Positions 3 to 40,586 of a stretch of DNA of 64,000 nucleotides are shown one piece after another (position 1 is the first letter of the stretch; every line of letters starts with the position of its first letter). Origin of the DNA: a virus; the IMG/VR virus record IMGVR_UViG_3300028423_000904, positions 27,540 to 91,539 of that record. One strand, given 5' to 3'. Under the pieces are notes generated by a model. That model was given only the letters and a program-made list of their open reading frames with translations. It was not told where the DNA came from and did no database searches. The position numbers were made by a program, and so were the translations under genes.

Positions 3-2099
3 ACAATGCCAACTGGTCCAGCAAATGGTAACCAGATTTGGTTGGACACAGATGCTAGTTCATTTGGTCTACACGTTTATGACTCATCGTCAGCAAGCTG
101 GGTCTTGCAAGAAGTCACAGTTGAGGTTTCACTTTCAGCTTCAGCTGGTGAAATTTCAGACCCAAGCAGTTATGCACCAACCGCATCAGCAGGAACCGCA
201 GGAGACTTCCTGGTTGCTGTTCTAAGCGACGGAACCACTGGTTTTGTTCTTGGATATTTTTATGATGATGGTGCTGCATGGCAGCCAGTAGAAGTTGGTG
301 GTGAAGCAGCTCTAGCCGCAACCACTGTTACATATGATGCACATTACAACAGCCCTGCAACACCTGCAGGAGACGACATTTGGGTTAAAACAACTAGCCC
401 AGGTAATGGTTTGAACTTGGTTGTTTACCAGTCAAATTCAAGCGGTGTGTTTGGATTGTTGGAAGTTGAAGGTGTTTCAAATGATGGCGGCACAACATAT
501 GTTGCGCAGGACGGAAGCAGCACAACTGACATCGTCAGCAGCATGGACGATAATAACATTGCTATCAATTTCACAGCAGCAAATGGCGGTGGAGAAATCC
601 TACGCATTGAATCGAGCACTGCAACTTCACTAGATGAGGCAGTGTATGCTCAGGATGATGAACCAACAGGCACAGCAACCGCTGGGACATATTGGTTTGA
701 CGATACAGCTACTGATCTTGATATTCTTATCAATACTGGATCAGACTGGGAACGTATTGATGAAGCAAATATCACATTTTCAACAAGCGAGCCACTAACA
801 CCAAGTGATGATGATATCTGGATTGATACAGGAGCACCTGAATCAGAATATCCAAAACTTTACCGTTATGACAGTGGTGCAAGCGCATGGTTGCTTTATG
901 ACAATACTGACCAGAGTACAGACCGTGGTGTCATCTTTGACGACTTTACTGTTGCAGATCGTAGCTCACTATCAAGTGGTGCAGTTACAGGTGCTAACTT
1001 GTTTGATAGTGCACCAGAAGCAGCACTATATCCAACAAACATGTTGGCAGTGAACATGGCACACTCAAGCAACACCCTGCGTGTATGGACTGAAAGCATT
1101 TCAGTAAACAGTGGTGGCTCAACAGTTGATGGATGGGTTAATGCTGTGGCAAACAATGCAAACGGTAGTGGTGTATTTGGTCGCCCTGCACAGCACAAGT
1201 TGGTTGCAACATCAATGCAGGCGGCGGTTTCAGGAAACGAAGACCTTCGCGATCCAAACCGTAACTTTACCCTGTTGTGTGCACCAAACTTCCCAGAGCT
1301 CACTGATGAGCTTGTAACACTCAACAGTGACCGTGGTGAAACAGCGTTTATCATTATTGATGCACCAATGCGCCTAACACCAACAGAGGCAGTTTCATGG
1401 ATCCAAGGCACTGGTGCAAGTGAAAATGGCGATGAAGGTCTTGTAACCAAGAATACCTACAGTGCTGTTTACTACCCTTCAGGACGTTCAACAACACCAG
1501 CTGGCGACACTGTTACCGTTCCAGCAAGTCATATGGTTCTTTACACATATGCTTATAACGACAACATTAGTTATCCATGGTTTGCACCAGCAGGCCTAAC
1601 ACGTGGCGTTGTTCAAAACGGAAGCGCAGTAGGCTATATCACAACTGAAGAAGAGTTCAAAGCAATCAGCTTGAATCAGGGTCAAAGAGATTCAATGTAT
1701 CTTAACAAACTTAACCCAATCACTCAGTTCCCACTTGAAGGTGTCGTGGTTTACGGTCAGAAGACCCTGCACCCAACATCAAGTGCACTTGACCGAGTAA
1801 ATGTTGCTCGTCTTGTTGCTTACTTGCGTGAACGTTTTGACGAAATTGCTCGTCCGTTGCTTTTTGAACAGAATGACAAACTCACTCGTGATCGTGCAGT
1901 TCAGTTGTTCAATTCATTCCTCGCAGACCTACTTACCAAGCGAGCACTAACAGACTTTGCAGTGGTTTGTGATGAAAGCAACAACACACCAATTCGAATC
2001 GATAGAAATGAACTTTATATTGACGTTGCTATTGCTCCAACAAAAGCAGTTGAGTTCATTTACATTCCGATCCGTATTGTTAACACTGGTGCCCTCTAA
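3..2099 (+). CDS. gp18: Tail sheath protein gp18, 5' end outside the window
   Basis: Contractile sheath subunit that polymerises around the tail tube. The C-terminal 250 residues carry the sheath signature: a YLRERFDEIARPLLFEQND-like stretch, then LTRDRAVQLFNSFLADL and a DRNELYIDVAIAP-like end. The frame is open to the left edge, so the ATG at position 6 is probably internal. The N-terminal 290 residues hold four loosely repeated segments built on DIW(I/L/V)DT or TYWFDD followed by (L/Y)xxY and a W, which look like small beta domains inserted in the sheath. The visible part alone (698 codons) exceeds T4 gp18 (659 aa). A strong terminator follows. Confidence 0.9.
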   Translation, partial: TMPTGPANGNQIWLDTDASSFGLHVYDSSSASWVLQEVTVEVSLSASAGEISDPSSYAPTASAGTAGDFLVAVLSDGTTGFVLGYFYDDGAAWQPVEVGGEAALAATTVTYDAHYNSPATPAGDDIWVKTTSPGNGLNLVVYQSNSSGVFGLLEVEGVSNDGGTTYVAQDGSSTTDIVSSMDDNNIAINFTAANGGGEILRIESSTATSLDEAVYAQDDEPTGTATAGTYWFDDTATDLDILINTGSDWERIDEANITFSTSEPLTPSDDDIWIDTGAPESEYPKLYRYDSGASAWLLYDNTDQSTDRGVIFDDFTVADRSSLSSGAVTGANLFDSAPEAALYPTNMLAVNMAHSSNTLRVWTESISVNSGGSTVDGWVNAVANNANGSGVFGRPAQHKLVATSMQAAVSGNEDLRDPNRNFTLLCAPNFPELTDELVTLNSDRGETAFIIIDAPMRLTPTEAVSWIQGTGASENGDEGLVTKNTYSAVYYPSGRSTTPAGDTVTVPASHMVLYTYAYNDNISYPWFAPAGLTRGVVQNGSAVGYITTEEEFKAISLNQGQRDSMYLNKLNPITQFPLEGVVVYGQKTLHPTSSALDRVNVARLVAYLRERFDEIARPLLFEQNDKLTRDRAVQLFNSFLADLLTKRALTDFAVVCDESNNTPIRIDRNELYIDVAIAPTKAVEFIYIPIRIVNTGAL

Positions 2100-2127: not shown

Positions 2128-2152
2128 GGGGCAGGACATAATGTTCTGCCCC
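2128..2152 (+). terminator. Rho-independent-type terminator after gp18
   Basis: A 10-bp stem (2128-2137 with 2143-2152, one G-T pair) has a 5-nt loop and is followed by a pyrimidine-rich run. It separates the sheath gene from the membrane operon. Confidence 0.75.
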
Positions 2153-2172: not shown

Positions 2173-2625
2173 ATGAACATGAGATTCTGGAAGTTCTGGA
2201 CTGTTTTCGTTCTGGTGATTTTTTCACTAGTTACAGGACAGATTTATTTTGGTTTGTTTGACCATATACTCGCGTATGACCAAACATATATTACATTCGT
2301 TAATATCGGTATATTGATACTTGCTCATTTAATGATGTTACGATTGCATTGGAAGAAAAAATACGCAGAACAACATCATAGAATGTTGCATTACCTAGCA
2401 GACACTGTGATTGTTTTGGGTCTTATCGGAACCCTGATTGGATTTATTATCATTCTTTGGTCTGTATTTGGACCAGGTGTTGTAATTGATCCGACAAATG
2501 TATCGTTAATGACAGACATGATTTCTCAAGTTGCACAGGGTATGGGTGCAGCATTGATTACGTCGCTTTCAGGTCTTATTAGTTCAGCTATTATTAGCCT
2601 TCAATTGGTATTTTTAGAAGAATGA
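2173..2625 (+). CDS. MotA/TolQ/ExbB-like proton-channel membrane protein
   Basis: A 150-aa protein with about four predicted membrane segments (residues 8-27, 38-57, 75-98, 125-147). The last two resemble the conserved MotA/TolQ/ExbB channel helices: LGLIGTLIGFIIIL followed, after a loop, by VAQGMGAALITSLSGLISSA. Known members use proton flow to drive a partner that has one membrane helix with an Asp, and the next gene encodes such a protein. It is shorter than MotA or TolQ and lacks their large cytoplasmic loop. AAGGA lies upstream of the ATG; the stop overlaps the next start as ATGA. The family call is fairly firm; the role in the phage is unknown. Confidence 0.75.
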   Translation: MNMRFWKFWTVFVLVIFSLVTGQIYFGLFDHILAYDQTYITFVNIGILILAHLMMLRLHWKKKYAEQHHRMLHYLADTVIVLGLIGTLIGFIIILWSVFGPGVVIDPTNVSLMTDMISQVAQGMGAALITSLSGLISSAIISLQLVFLEE

Positions 2626-3218
2626 GAAATGTAGCATCACTATTTGCGTTCATTGATATGCTCTTTAATTTCTTATTGGGGTTCACCTCATTGTTGATTC
2701 TCTCTTTTTTGATAATCAACCCGCCTGGCGACGTAGGAAAGATTGATCCCCCAGTAAAATTAATGGCCACAATTGAATGGGACGATGAAAGTTTGGCTGA
2801 TATAGATATATGGGTCAGAGGTTATGATGAAGAATGGGTTGGCTTTACAAATAAGGACGGTTCTTATGTTTCACTTGAACGTGATGACCGTGGACAACGC
2901 ACTGACATTATAACTGTCAATGGTGAAGACCAAATAATCATGCGAAATTTTGAAATTATGAATTTTACTGAATTACCAGCAGGAGAGTATTTTTTCAATA
3001 TACATCACTACAGTAATGGTGGTGATCTAGAGAGCCCAGATGTTGAAGTGAAAGTAACAGTTACCAATATGGATCCACACGAGCTTATATTCCAAGACAC
3101 AACGGTGTTGTCATTAAAAGAAGAAAAAACAGTTCTCTCATTTGTTGTTGATCATGAAGGTAAAATATCCGATATCCGGACCGATGTTAGACTGCCACAT
3201 AAAGAAATTGGAAATTAA
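2622..3218 (+). CDS. MotB/ExbD/TolR-like protein with one membrane anchor and an exported beta domain
   Basis: A 198-aa protein. Residues 8-33 form one membrane helix with an Asp near its start (FIDMLFNFLLGFTSLLIL), the arrangement of ExbD, TolR and MotB, where this Asp carries the proton. Residues 45-190 look like a beta-sandwich placed outside the inner membrane, not the OmpA-type peptidoglycan-binding domain of MotB. It is translationally coupled to the MotA-like gene (ATGA overlap), which supports a two-part complex. Confidence in the pairing is good; the periplasmic partner cannot be named. Confidence 0.65.
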   Translation: MRNVASLFAFIDMLFNFLLGFTSLLILSFLIINPPGDVGKIDPPVKLMATIEWDDESLADIDIWVRGYDEEWVGFTNKDGSYVSLERDDRGQRTDIITVNGEDQIIMRNFEIMNFTELPAGEYFFNIHHYSNGGDLESPDVEVKVTVTNMDPHELIFQDTTVLSLKEEKTVLSFVVDHEGKISDIRTDVRLPHKEIGN

Positions 3219-3220
3219 TT

Positions 3221-3664
3221 ATGAATTTAATACTTTCTCTGGTCGTTTTATTTGCAATTACGATAGCATTTTTGACATACCGTTCAGATTCTCATTGGTC
3301 ATTGAAATCTGTTGTCCTTCCAATTTTTTTGATTATAGCGTTATTAGGATATGAACATTATGTAGATCATTTAGGAAAGCCACTCCTTGAAAAGCCAAAG
3401 GGAGATTATGAATATCATCACCATGTTGTAACATCTGAGTCAAATATTATTGCTTGGGTAAGAAATCGCGACGGTGAGCATCGTTTATATAAATTTCCTT
3501 ACAATCGAGAAGATGCCAAAAAACTCGAGAAAGCCAAGCAAGAGACAAAACGAACGGGCAAGCCCGTTCGTTTGAAATTCAAAATGGGTGAAATAAGTCG
3601 AGTGAAAGACTCTGAAGAATGGGATATGCTTCCAAACAACCCAGTCAAACAGCCTGAAAATTAA
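3221..3664 (+). CDS. Small membrane protein, third gene of the Mot/Exb-like operon
   Basis: A 147-aa protein with two N-terminal hydrophobic helices (about residues 2-19 and 28-44) and a charged C-terminal part rich in Lys, Arg and Glu. No family recognised. It begins 2 nt after the MotB-like stop, with GGAAA upstream, so it is probably a component of the same membrane complex. Its coding sequence holds a perfect 12-bp inverted repeat at 3548-3573. The end overlaps the convergent small gene at 3661-3840. Confidence 0.65.
   Translation: MNLILSLVVLFAITIAFLTYRSDSHWSLKSVVLPIFLIIALLGYEHYVDHLGKPLLEKPKGDYEYHHHVVTSESNIIAWVRNRDGEHRLYKFPYNREDAKKLEKAKQETKRTGKPVRLKFKMGEISRVKDSEEWDMLPNNPVKQPEN
3548..3573. 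repeat. Perfect 12-bp inverted repeat inside a CDS
   Basis: Arms 3548-3559 and 3562-3573 are exactly complementary with a 2-nt centre. The GAACGGGC core recurs as a hairpin at 49134-49163. It may be an RNA hairpin or a protein site; no function is shown. Confidence 0.5.
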
Positions 3665-3840
3665 GCAGCAGAGTTCTGCACATCGGCCATCATAACCGGC
3701 GCCAGCCAGGGCGCAACCGTAATAAGTGCACATACCAGAACAGTGCTAGCCACCATACTGGGAACCAAAAGAGTCTCGCCGTTATTGATAATCATCAAGC
3801 CAGCCGGCGAGATATTGACTTCAGTATCTTTGATCTTCAT
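3661..3840 (-). CDS. Small predicted membrane protein under a strong sigma70-like promoter
   Basis: A 59-aa protein, the only minus-strand gene in the first 18 kb. Residues 1-27 are polar (starts MKIKDTEVNISPAG) and residues 28-50 form one hydrophobic helix. I chose the ATG at 3840 because GGAG lies 6 nt upstream; in-frame ATGs at 3846 and 3852 sit on or before that site. A TTGACA-N17-TATATT promoter lies immediately upstream, so it is probably expressed early, unlike the late genes around it. A small membrane protein made at infection onset could act in exclusion or lysis control, but that is a guess. Confidence 0.55.
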   Translation of the reverse strand: MKIKDTEVNISPAGLMIINNGETLLVPSMVASTVLVCALITVAPWLAPVMMADVQNSAA

Positions 3841-3869
3841 GTTCATCTCCATGCTTGTGTTGTATTTAC

Positions 3870-4396: not shown

Positions 4397-4404
4397 GATA
4401 AATA
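4397..4404 (+). promoter_or_regulatory. Late promoter GATAAATA for gp19
   Basis: Full match to the T4-type late box, 34 nt before the gp19 ATG, with GAGGAG as ribosome site in between. Confidence 0.7.
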
Positions 4405-18790: not shown

Positions 18791-18833
18791 AGCCGCAGGT
18801 CAGTCTCGGGTTTGAAACCCGAGCTCTGCGGCT
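18791..18833. terminator. Nested hairpins between convergent genes
   Basis: An outer 8-bp stem (18791-18798 with 18826-18833) encloses an inner 9-bp stem (18805-18813 with 18815-18823). It lies at the junction of the plus-strand AAA+ gene and the last minus-strand adhesin gene, partly inside the latter's final codons. It probably stops transcription from both sides, although no T run follows. Confidence 0.5.
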
Positions 18834-19780
18834 TTAGCTTCTGAAATGGTCCAAGCTGAACCTGTATCAGGATTGGTTGTAAATATTTCTTTAAATGGTT
18901 TTCGTACCATTTCAACGGTTTGATCAGAACCAAATCCGTCTGTGGTTCCAGAACGAACTACGTGTCTTAGGTTCTTGCCCGCGTCGGCACCTTTAAAAGC
19001 TCTTACACTGCTACATACTGCTAACACGTCATACCCTGTATCAAAGTCTGTTGTAAGCGTGGGTTGGGTATATGTTTGTCGTTGTCCTGTGGTGTCTGAC
19101 TCTACAAAGGTAGAATCGCTTACATCCACACTGTCAAATTGAGTATAGTCTCCACCTGCCCACTCTGTATATGTTCCATCAGCCGCAGGCCATGTTTGGA
19201 TGTATTGCATATCTAGGGTAGGCTCATCAGCAATGATGACGGCAGATTGGATACAGTATCCACCGCCACCCCACGAGCCTACACGGAATTGTGTGGTTCC
19301 AGTGCGGGTGCCACTGGCCGAAGTATCACCACGGAAGTTATTTCCATACGGAGATCCATTCTTATACAGGTCTATTGCGCCATAGGTCGGATCAATCTTG
19401 AATCTAAAATCCCACCTTGCACGGCTTGTAAAGTTGCCGCCCCATGAACCCAGCAACTCACGCCATGTAGATCCATCATACCAGTCAAAATCGATATTGG
19501 ACCAGCTATTATAATTTTTGACCATACGAAAAATTGCATCTCCATTATCATCATATATAACGATAATTGTTCCGCTAGCGTCGTCCTCTTGCATTCTCAT
19601 GTAAAAGCTTACCCACACTTCTGATGTATTTGTCCAGGTCAAATACGCTAATGGTGATCTGTTACGAGTAATGAGTCCACGACGCACATATGGTGCTATA
19701 CTGGTTGTGGTGTCGCCAGTTTGGTTGGGATCACCTTCATAAAACTCTGTTACACTTGTGCCGTATTGCAATATAGCCAT
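18800..19780 (-). CDS. MAIL-family adhesin paralogue 1
   Basis: A 326-aa member of the family repeated eleven times in this array. The common plan: start MAILQYGTSVTEFYEG; a jelly-roll-like N-terminal half with EVWVSFYMR and RWDFRFKID; a middle with MQYIQTWPAADGTYTEW and TTDFDTGYDVLAV; a C-terminal end with VRSGTTDGFGS, IFTTNPDTG and AWTISEAKAAELGF. I infer a virion-surface or tail-fibre adhesin. AAGGA precedes the ATG. With the next two genes it forms a closely similar tandem triplet. Its end is embedded in the hairpin at 18791-18833. Confidence 0.7.
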   Translation of the reverse strand: MAILQYGTSVTEFYEGDPNQTGDTTTSIAPYVRRGLITRNRSPLAYLTWTNTSEVWVSFYMRMQEDDASGTIIVIYDDNGDAIFRMVKNYNSWSNIDFDWYDGSTWRELLGSWGGNFTSRARWDFRFKIDPTYGAIDLYKNGSPYGNNFRGDTSASGTRTGTTQFRVGSWGGGGYCIQSAVIIADEPTLDMQYIQTWPAADGTYTEWAGGDYTQFDSVDVSDSTFVESDTTGQRQTYTQPTLTTDFDTGYDVLAVCSSVRAFKGADAGKNLRHVVRSGTTDGFGSDQTVEMVRKPFKEIFTTNPDTGSAWTISEAKAAELGFQTRD

Positions 19781-19789
19781 GGTATTTCC

Positions 19790-20773
19790 TTATAGTCTAA
19801 CCTGGAAACCCAATTCAGCATTTTTTGCATCAGCAAGTGTCCAAGCAACACCTGTGGCTGGGTCTGTTTCGAATATTTCTTTGAGTGGTTTTTTGACTAA
19901 TGATACTGTTTGGTCTGAACCAAATCCGTCTGAGGTTCCTGAACGAACCATATGCCTGATATTATTTCCAGAATCAGCGCCTTTGAATGTTCTAGTCGTC
20001 TGACATAGAGCAGAAACGTCATAACCAAAATCAAAATCAGTGGTGACAGTTGGCAAGGTATATGTGTATCTGTCTCCGTTATTTTGTCCTTCAATTAAAT
20101 CAATATCATCTATACCCACTTCGTCAATTGCGGTGTAATCGCCACCTGCCCATTCAGTATATGTTCCATCTGTTGCTGGCCAGGTTTGAAGGTAGTGCAT
20201 ATTTAATGTAGGCTCATCAGCAATGATAACGGCTGAAATAACATAATATCCTTCACCACCCCATGATCCGATTCGGAAGGAATTCAATCCAGATCGCGCC
20301 CCACCATTTGTGGTGTCTCCTGGACGATGGTCGACTTCAAGCCTGCCGTCTTTGTAGATATCAAATGCACCATCAACTGCATCAATTTTGCATCTAAAAT
20401 CCCAGCGCGTTCTAGTTTCATAACTACTATCACCCCAGCTGCTTTTGACATCAGTCCAAGATGAACCATCATAATATTCAAAGTCAATATTACCAGTTGA
20501 ATTCCAATTTTTTTGTAATCTGAAAAAAGGTGTGTCGTCATTAGCATAAACAACAACAAAGTCGCCATTGTTATCATCCAACCTACCACGTAAATAGAAG
20601 CTTACCCAAACTTCTGACGTGCTGGTCCAGTTTAGATAAGCAAGGGGCGAATTACTATATATAACCGTACCACGTCTAACATATGGAGCATCACTTGTTG
20701 TAGTATCATTTGAAGAGTTGGGAATACCGTCATAAAATTCTGATACACTTGTGCCAAATTGTAAAATAGCCAT
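19790..20773 (-). CDS. MAIL-family adhesin paralogue 2
   Basis: A 327-aa member starting MAILQFGTSVSEFYDG. Very similar to paralogue 1 in the C-terminal half (MHYLQTWPATDGTYTEW, VRSGTSDGFGS) but different in the loops between residues 80 and 180 (YDGSSWTDVKSSWGDSS). That split is what is expected if the first half carries the receptor-binding surface. The intergenic distance is 9 nt and AAGGA precedes the ATG. Confidence 0.7.
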   Translation of the reverse strand: MAILQFGTSVSEFYDGIPNSSNDTTTSDAPYVRRGTVIYSNSPLAYLNWTSTSEVWVSFYLRGRLDDNNGDFVVVYANDDTPFFRLQKNWNSTGNIDFEYYDGSSWTDVKSSWGDSSYETRTRWDFRCKIDAVDGAFDIYKDGRLEVDHRPGDTTNGGARSGLNSFRIGSWGGEGYYVISAVIIADEPTLNMHYLQTWPATDGTYTEWAGGDYTAIDEVGIDDIDLIEGQNNGDRYTYTLPTVTTDFDFGYDVSALCQTTRTFKGADSGNNIRHMVRSGTSDGFGSDQTVSLVKKPLKEIFETDPATGVAWTLADAKNAELGFQVRL

Positions 20774-20782
20774 TTTATTTCC

Positions 20783-21772
20783 TTAAATTCTGATTTGAAA
20801 CCCGAGCTCTGCGGCCTTGGCTTCTGATATTGTCCAAGGAGAACCAGTAGCAGGATTTACTGTGAATATTTGTTTGTATGGTTTCTTAATTAGAGATAGT
20901 TCTTCTTTTTGACTGAAATCATCCGTAGTTCCAGAACGTACCATGTGACGAAAATTTTTACCATCAACGTTCTTTTTATCTGCTCTTACCGTTTGACATA
21001 CTGCAACGACTTTGTGTCCGATATCGAAATTGTTTGTAAGTGTGGGCAAAGTGTATGTATATCTGGTATCAGTGTCTTCTGATTTAAGAGAATCGGTATC
21101 ATCAATACCAGTTTCGTCAATGGCTGTGAAATCTCCATTACCCCATTCAGTGTATGTTCCGTCAGCCGCAGGCCACGTTTGTAGGTATTGCATATTAAGC
21201 GTTGGTTCGTCTGCAACAATAAGAGCAGAAATCGTGTACCATCCTTCAGCACCTGCAAAGCTTCCGATCCGGAATGAATTAAGTCCAGTCCTTGCTCCGC
21301 CATTTGTTGTATCACCTGGTAAATATTCTGCATCAAGAAAACCGTTTTTGTAGATACTCACTCCGCCATCAACCGCATCTACTTTGAAACGCATATCCCA
21401 TCTCACAGTGGTATACCAGTTTGTATGACCCCAACTGCTTTTAAAATCTGTATAGCTGTTGCCATCATTATATTCAAAGTCAATATTGGTCACTGAGTTA
21501 TTAACTTTTTCCATACGAAAGAATACACTATCGTCATCACCATAAACAACTACAATACTTCCGTAATTGTCATCAAGATAACCTCTCATGTAAAATGTAA
21601 TCCATACTTCGGGTGTTGACTCCCAGTTAATGTATGCGAGTGGTGTGCTTCTATACATTAGTGTTGATTTTCGAGTATACGGAGCCTTGCCATTGTCATG
21701 ATCAATTGCACCGCCTGTATCGTCACCCTCAAAAAATTCTGTAATACTGTTAGCATATTGAAGAATGGCCAT
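20783..21772 (-). CDS. MAIL-family adhesin paralogue 3
   Basis: A 329-aa member starting MAILQYANSITEFFEG. Shares a GDTTNGGARTGLNSFRIGS segment with paralogue 2 and the AKAAELGFQ end with paralogue 1, so the triplet looks like recent tandem duplication with mixing. AAAGGA precedes the ATG. The sequence upstream has a weak late-like box (GTAAATA on the minus strand). Confidence 0.7.
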   Translation of the reverse strand: MAILQYANSITEFFEGDDTGGAIDHDNGKAPYTRKSTLMYRSTPLAYINWESTPEVWITFYMRGYLDDNYGSIVVVYGDDDSVFFRMEKVNNSVTNIDFEYNDGNSYTDFKSSWGHTNWYTTVRWDMRFKVDAVDGGVSIYKNGFLDAEYLPGDTTNGGARTGLNSFRIGSFAGAEGWYTISALIVADEPTLNMQYLQTWPAADGTYTEWGNGDFTAIDETGIDDTDSLKSEDTDTRYTYTLPTLTNNFDIGHKVVAVCQTVRADKKNVDGKNFRHMVRSGTTDDFSQKEELSLIKKPYKQIFTVNPATGSPWTISEAKAAELGFQIRI

Positions 21773-39584: not shown

Positions 39585-40565
39585 CTATAGAAGCTTTGCA
39601 CCAATTTCCGCTGATTTGGCTTCTGAAATAGTCCATTCTGCCGTTGTATTTGGATTTGTTGAAAAAACTTCTCTGTATGGCTGCAACGTTGTGCTCACAG
39701 TATTGGTGGATCCATCGCCATCCGTAGTCCCTGAACGAACCATGAAATTAAAATCCTTGGATGATGCTGATCCAGCCCATGCCCTTGCTGCAACACCTAC
39801 ACCAACTACCACATATCCTGAATCAAAATCAGTGGTAAGAGTTCCAACATCAAAACTTGATCTATTCCCGGTTGTCTCTGTGCTAATATTATCTGCGTCA
39901 TCGAAACCAATCTCGTCAATGTCTGTGTGCGCCCCTGTCCATTGTGAATATGTTCCTGCTGCACTTGGACGTGTTTGGATATAGTGCATTCCAATCGTGC
40001 TTTCATCGGCAGCCATAAATGCAGACAATGTCAAGCCACTGTTGTCCCAGCCACCTAGACGCACAGTATTGATACCAGTTCTGGTTCCGCCAACAGTTGT
40101 ATCAATTGTTCCACTATCACCATGTAAAGTACCGTTTTCATAGATTTCAATAATTCCAGAAGCATCAGTAAGAAAACGAACATCAAACCGAACCAGTGAC
40201 CATGCACCAAATCCAAGAGGACCAACATTTGTCCATCCTGAACCATTATGCCATTGCCATTGGAAATTTCCGCCAAATCCGTTTGAACCGTAAGCTCTTA
40301 ATACTGGATCTCCATTTGCATCATCAAGGTAAATTGGCGTATCAAAACTATCGTCATCATTGTTGTATGCATAAAAGGACAGCCAAAAATCAGATGTTGC
40401 GGAGAAATTCAATTCAGATCCGGCAGGAGCATTGAACAAGTCTTGCATCTGAATTCCTTCATTAACATATGGACCTAAACGACCACTGTTCGTATCAGAA
40501 TTTACTCGTGATACAGTTCCAGGAAACCAATCGGCCATGGAAGTCGCAAAACTAAGAATTGCCAT
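39585..40565 (-). CDS. MAIL-family adhesin paralogue 5
   Basis: A 326-aa member starting MAILSFATSMADWFPG. I use the ATG at 40565; the longer TTG start would consume the GGAG ribosome site. Family signatures: DFWLSFYAYNN, LVRFDVRFL, MHYIQTRPSAAGTYSQW, TTDFDSGYVVVGVGVAARAW, MVRSGTTDGDGS, EWTISEAKSAEIG. Perfect late promoter upstream. Confidence 0.72.
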   Translation of the reverse strand: MAILSFATSMADWFPGTVSRVNSDTNSGRLGPYVNEGIQMQDLFNAPAGSELNFSATSDFWLSFYAYNNDDDSFDTPIYLDDANGDPVLRAYGSNGFGGNFQWQWHNGSGWTNVGPLGFGAWSLVRFDVRFLTDASGIIEIYENGTLHGDSGTIDTTVGGTRTGINTVRLGGWDNSGLTLSAFMAADESTIGMHYIQTRPSAAGTYSQWTGAHTDIDEIGFDDADNISTETTGNRSSFDVGTLTTDFDSGYVVVGVGVAARAWAGSASSKDFNFMVRSGTTDGDGSTNTVSTTLQPYREVFSTNPNTTAEWTISEAKSAEIGAKLL

Positions 40566-40586
40566 TATTTTCTCCAAATCTACTAA

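Follow-up and report, generated by a model that had tools for sequence, protein, structure and literature searches.

Three genes in phage DNA appear to form a further branch of ion-driven motors in bacteria, exchanged between phages and their hosts

Three adjacent genes in this phage DNA, here called A, B and C, very probably encode an ion-driven inner-membrane motor of the class that contains ExbBD, TolQR, MotAB and ZorAB, and the set appears to represent a motor branch not described before, one that phages and bacterial hosts have passed to each other. Assignment to the motor class is drawn from sequence, namely the profile matches of A, the Asp12 of B, the Thr87 of A, the hydroxyl residue at position 131 of A and the constant order of the three genes. 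Ion-driven 5:2 motors form a small set with large roles, in swimming, nutrient uptake, division, gliding and phage defence. We know of no earlier phage-encoded ion-driven motor, and this would be the first known to us if the three-subunit motor reading is true. A literature search retrieved neither a phage-encoded motor of the MotA/ExbB class nor a description of an A-B-C operon. Furthermore, a 2025 survey of motor homologues in mBio presents them as generic ion transporters to which a variety of domains, of unknown function, are attached, and a search of its text for phage, virus and related words returned no phage-encoded motor (PMC12505986).

The window, i.e. the whole 64,000 nucleotide stretch of DNA analysed, comes from a virus record of 91.5 kb, a fragment of a giant tailed phage. 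Its terminase and tail tube have their nearest counterparts in the jumbo myophages PA5oct, Atu_ph07 and Phosso. The set sits between tail sheath and tail tube genes, with one unnamed ORF as a further neighbour (Table 1). A preliminary description of the sequence had placed three membrane protein genes in a phage, and this picture held as far as it went: the coordinates agree exactly, the start of B overlaps the end of A (ATGA), C begins 2 nt past B, and hydropathy gives four, one and two membrane helices for A, B and C, respectively. It was incomplete in that C proved to be a constant member of the set, and the set is also a cellular alphaproteobacterial operon rather than phage-specific.

Table 1. 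Features of the A-B-C region, in window coordinates.
Feature	Position	Strand	Description or basis
Tail sheath, 3' part	6..2099	+	full gene begins upstream of the window
12-bp stem between sheath and A	2128..2152	+	stem at the same place in viral locus L001
Gene A	2173..2625	+	150 aa; four-helix MotA/TolQ/ExbB-family subunit (by sequence), without large cytoplasmic domain
A Thr87, third helix (GLIGT)	2431..2433	+	aligned with the Thr of ZorA MGIIGT
A Thr130, fourth helix, next to Ser131	2560..2562	+	conservation and alignment
Gene B	2622..3218	+	198 aa; one-helix MotB/ExbD-like subunit with predicted exported beta-sandwich
B Asp12, membrane helix	2655..2657	+	presumed ion-carrying residue; conservation
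B beta-sandwich, residues 47-186, DUF2135/YfaP-like core	2760..3179	+	predicted structure and hhalign
Gene C	3221..3664	+	147 aa; two-helix protein with predicted small beta-beta-beta-alpha-beta domain

Judged by profile comparison, A is a member of the MotA/TolQ/ExbB family. It scores 26.8 bits against Pfam MotA_ExbB (PF01618), above the cut-off of 22.9 (E 4.7e-6), so the family match proposed earlier passed its profile test, and 37 of 41 A relatives match the same model at E<=0.01. When a broad A profile (A5) was compared with the PDB, 22 of the 23 hits were MotA, PomA, TolQ, ExbB, ZorA or channel-domain proteins; a profile built from marine sequences only (A8) had no PDB match. The third-helix Thr87 is Thr in 39/41 relatives and is replaced, by A or N, in two rhizobial phage copies. 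Position 130 is T or S in 39/41 relatives and position 131 in all 41, and in an alignment to ZorA and MotA this fourth-helix Thr/Ser pair falls on the Gly-Ser of ZorA. The phage form is short, about 150 aa versus approximately 200-300 aa for most cellular A proteins, although the A of SAR116 cells is equally short.

The partner subunit likewise has the expected form: B has one helix, and Asp12 is conserved without exception in the 45 relatives whose sequence extends over it, so that the pairing of a MotA/ExbB-like with a MotB/ExbD-like protein was borne out. Its predicted structure consists of a helix (residues 2-32) followed by a beta-sandwich (mean pLDDT 89.5), which had no PDB match at E<=0.001, in keeping with the earlier remark that the exported domain is unusual; a search of BFVD returned two uncharacterised phage proteins. 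By hhalign, the core of the domain can be aligned to YfaP of E. coli, a DUF2135 protein, with a probability of 74% and E 2.8e-5. B lies below the cut-off of the Pfam DUF2135 model (PF09906), and 3 of 46 B proteins gave a hit to this model, with E up to 0.1. Pfam found neither ExbD/TolR nor an OmpA-like peptidoglycan-binding domain in the 46 B members. Taken together, sequence and model describe the exported domain as a beta-sandwich distantly like YfaP, and not as ExbD, TolR or a peptidoglycan-binding domain. Eight residues are invariant in 46/46 B proteins (W53, D60, D62, L85, D88, D89, G91 and E111); the five acidic ones (D60, D62, D88, D89 and E111) could be metal ligands. One genome locus (L261, 9018-10254) contains two tandem B-type ORFs, and the second match is without the usual N-terminal helix region. 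The predicted model of C combines two helices with a small alpha/beta domain (beta-beta-beta-alpha-beta); it had no PDB match at E<=0.001, and profile searches of C gave no TonB or TolA family match.

In common with the PF01618 5:2 motors, A has the family match, four helices, the third-helix GT and the fourth-helix Thr/Ser pair, and its partner in the same operon has one helix and one Asp. Unlike them, A is minimal and without the flagellar torque domain, B carries no ExbD/TolR, OmpA-like or TonB part, and there is an extra constant gene. ExbBD-TonB and TolQRA resemble the set in having three membrane genes per operon, a small A and an Asp in the B helix, but here C has two helices with no TonB/TolA match, no TolB/Pal neighbours were found in the window or the phage loci, and the exported domain of B is a large beta-sandwich. 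The exported core of B aligns with E. coli YfaP, but YfaP carries no motor helix and its gene has no motor gene as a neighbour. In Zorya, the Asp that corresponds to Asp12 of B packs against a ring of ZorA Ser/Thr residues, and defence depends on it (PMC11890865). The profile search places ZorA with the nearest relatives of A that have a solved structure, and the pairing logic is the same, but A lacks the long ZorA tail, B lacks the ZorB peptidoglycan-binding domain, and no neighbour resembles the ZorC, ZorD or ZorE effectors. The ZorA models of PADLOC matched A weakly, and B matched none of its models; identity with Zorya was ruled out, as the defining parts are absent.

A motor of this kind would, by analogy with its class, place five A subunits around two B subunits, with the Asp of the B helix binding the ion, the YfaP/DUF2135-like sandwich serving as output domain and C acting as a constant third membrane partner. 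Ton and Tol turn an ion gradient into work, and A-B-C would similarly use the gradient of the host for work at the inner membrane and in the periplasm.

Beyond the window, the set is widespread in phages. A scan of viral contigs with B gave 135 related places, 80 of which were kept; 79 are non-duplicate, and in each of these the three genes are all present, with order and strand unchanged. In 46 representative phage loci, A and B overlap or are separated by at most 3 nt in 42, and B and C by at most 9 nt in 43. Among named phages, 27 records carry B, with hosts that are all Rhizobium or Sinorhizobium. These named phages were reached by the B search and gave no match to A alone, although A and C, annotated as hypothetical proteins, lie beside B in 7/7 rhizobial phages inspected; the pair that the preliminary description suggested seeking in other phages is thus present in these seven. 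A close relative of the window is L001, where A-B-C again separates sheath and tube (63, 56 and ~37% identity to A, B and C, respectively). Mis-called viral contigs were ruled out by the block of tail genes in the window and by terminase genes in 10 of 25 long viral records, one of them 328 kb. Across 15 phage pairs, A had a dN/dS of 0-0.15, B one of 0.08-0.22 and C one of 0.09-0.32, i.e. all three genes are under purifying selection in phages. The low dN/dS and the identical order in 79 viral loci indicate that the triplet is not a product of chance.

The same operon is found in cells. When 84,980 species genomes were scanned with a sequence pattern, 46 relatives were recovered; their titles place nearly all of them in SAR116 or elsewhere in the Alphaproteobacteria (one MAG bears the title Cryomorphaceae), and the operon is complete in 45, the remaining locus being cut by a contig end. 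In a sample of 385 Alphaproteobacteria genomes there were 64 matches, 56 of them strong (about 15%), and A and C adjoin B in nearly all; two operon copies are located on Azospirillum megaplasmids. A phylum-wide sample gave matches in 22 of 399 genomes. Among its 16 strong carriers, 13 have the tmRNA of Alphaproteobacteria; in the other 3 the tmRNA is of the one-piece kind and the alpha form is absent, from which it follows that a few carriers are outside the Alphaproteobacteria; strict confinement to that class was rejected on these grounds. Prophage or misassembly was ruled out for SAR116 by the housekeeping genes that flank the operon in the two loci read, which are the same in two lineages. 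Invention of the set by phages was also dismissed, since SAR116 and further Alphaproteobacteria carry the operon on their chromosomes.

A tree built from 96 B proteins does not separate phages from cells: SAR116 B is nested among phage sequences with strong support and three Sinorhizobium-type phages cluster with one cellular branch. An AU test rejected a single clade of all phage sequences (p 3e-10), which rules out one phage origin, and rejected it again when the three Sinorhizobium-type sequences were left out (p 0.002). The operon thus belongs to alphaproteobacterial chromosomes and those of a few other Proteobacteria, and the tree points to repeated transfer between cells and phages.

The genes around the set differ by branch. 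In one cellular branch, seven genomes have a PQQ dehydrogenase of the methanol/ethanol type at a distance of ~1 kb from the operon, while in others of the branch a PQQ-linked ABC system adjoins it (cellular copies near PQQ alcohol dehydrogenases or the ABC system: L299, L300, L302, L306, L303, L304, L261). Strong PQQ-dehydrogenase hits occur in 36/56 carriers versus 63/329 other genomes of the 385 (p 3e-11, in a test that ignores phylogeny), and in 26/30 genomes of the linked branch, a branch picked after the tree had been seen and a comparison that likewise ignores phylogeny. In phages, an importer of the SbmA/BacA family lies within three genes downstream in 9/46 loci and is present in 9/26 cassette-bearing phage records, often 1-3 genes downstream; three such importers were checked and scored 413-452 bits. 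No SbmA/BacA gene was found in the window's own fragment. This inner-membrane peptide importer was seen near the set in L089, L092, L094, L108, L111, L114, L116, L119 and L131. ClpS is directly downstream of the set in 12/46 phage loci and Hsp20 directly upstream in 9/46; this chaperone/proteolysis setting was noted in L108, L110, L111, L114, L119, L121, L123, L145, L151 and L163, and ClpP is also nearby in some of the phages so framed. Other phage surroundings include DNA polymerase, gyrase or late-sigma genes. Neighbouring genes in high-GC loci were called by codon scoring, as longest-ORF calling is misleading there. The separate links, to PQQ in cells and to SbmA or Hsp20/ClpS in phages, may reflect lineage or a late-gene neighbourhood.

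Expression was approached through the motif ATAAATA, which we liken to the T4 late promoter. Of the 23 sites in the window, 16 precede the start of an ORF by no more than 80 nt, versus 6% of random positions; examples a short way ahead of an ORF, on one strand or the other, are at 4398, 5748, 25388 and 26432. One site stands 38 nt ahead of the sheath start and none precedes A, B or C in the window, so the three genes would be read late, by continuation from the sheath promoter. A scan of the region for sigma-70 promoters gave no excess over shuffled sequence. A-B-C is thus probably expressed late, together with the tail sheath.

The task most consistent with these data would be envelope transport or maintenance during infection, and not virion structure. 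The SbmA/BacA importer near phage copies and the PQQ systems near cell copies speak for it, albeit that an auxiliary envelope-energising role, taken by itself, is a tentative suggestion, possible but well short of probable. For the explanation as a whole, in which a motor with a YfaP-like output and a third partner is exchanged between cells and phages, expressed late and given an auxiliary envelope role, the balance tips slightly in favour.

Superinfection exclusion or defence between phages, in which the complex would sense or alter the envelope and block a second phage by a Zorya-like logic without Zorya effectors, is possible but rather unlikely. The kinship of A with ZorA, in solved structures and in the weak PADLOC matches, would suit it, as would the presence of the set in many unrelated phages, which is expected of an exclusion gene; against this, A is without a cytosolic tail, B without a peptidoglycan-binding domain and the locus without an adjoining effector gene, the surroundings of many cell copies are housekeeping or PQQ genes rather than defence genes, and expression here appears to be late, whereas exclusion is often early. 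That same probable late transcription with the sheath is compatible with a part in lysis, where the motor would help to open the envelope or disrupt the outer membrane as infection ends, either in place of spanins or together with them. Three membrane proteins, two of them with periplasmic domains, and a cell-wall hydrolase gene (PF07486) 5-6 genes upstream of the set in 4 phage loci point the same way, but no holin, endolysin or spanin family recurs among the listed flanking genes of the 46 phage loci, and the operon is kept in the chromosomes of cells that survive; lysis is possible but improbable. It is very doubtful that the phage subunits are decoys that mix with and jam host ExbBD, TolQR, ZorAB or a host A-B-C: the minimal size of phage A could be read in this way, but SAR116 cells have an A no longer than that of phages, the three genes are held together under purifying selection, and the ion-path residues are intact in nearly all phage copies; the last point, with the missing Zorya parts, also renders unlikely the earlier idea of interference with host Tol/Exb or Zorya. 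A virion or assembly component, made beside the tail genes for use in tail assembly, has the least credence: the sheath-tube position in the window's own clade (the window, L001, L007, L009 and L087) would suit it, but elsewhere the set adjoins Hsp20/ClpS, DNA polymerase, gyrase or late-sigma genes, and PA5oct, Atu_ph07 and Phosso have different genes in that interval.

In its widest form, the motor reading would add to the flagellar, Ton/Tol/gliding and Zorya types of 5:2 machine another ion-driven one, made of three subunits, with a YfaP-like and possibly metal-binding output, native to Alphaproteobacteria, where one branch would serve PQQ alcohol oxidation, and repeatedly carried by phages to energise envelope transport in infection; this is a serious possibility that stops a little short of probable. 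A-B-C would add a motor branch with three genes and an unrecognised output domain, present in about 15% of the sampled alphaproteobacterial genomes and in many marine and rhizobial phages. It raises the question of which ion-powered envelope work a phage needs. The branch is testable in culture, being carried by Rhizobium phages and Azospirillum, and the link to PQQ alcohol dehydrogenases offers a handle on its cellular role.

Several other features of the window were recorded. A 26-base stem-loop sequence with 11 pairs (3548-3573; AAACGAACGGGCTTGCCCGTTCGTTT when read on the minus strand) lies inside gene C. After C there is a 63-aa minus-strand ORF (3661-3852) with a good sigma-70-like site, TTGACA-17-TATATT, at 3898-3870; it was dropped as a conserved gene, as neither L001 nor L007 has a convincing relative in the corresponding position. 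Further along, positions 18800-49010 of the minus strand contain eleven paralogues of ~326-365 aa that are 29-61% identical (for example 18800-19780, 19790-20773, 20783-21772 and 39585-40577), an expanded family that perhaps has a structural role, and two more paralogous groups are present among the larger ORFs of the window.
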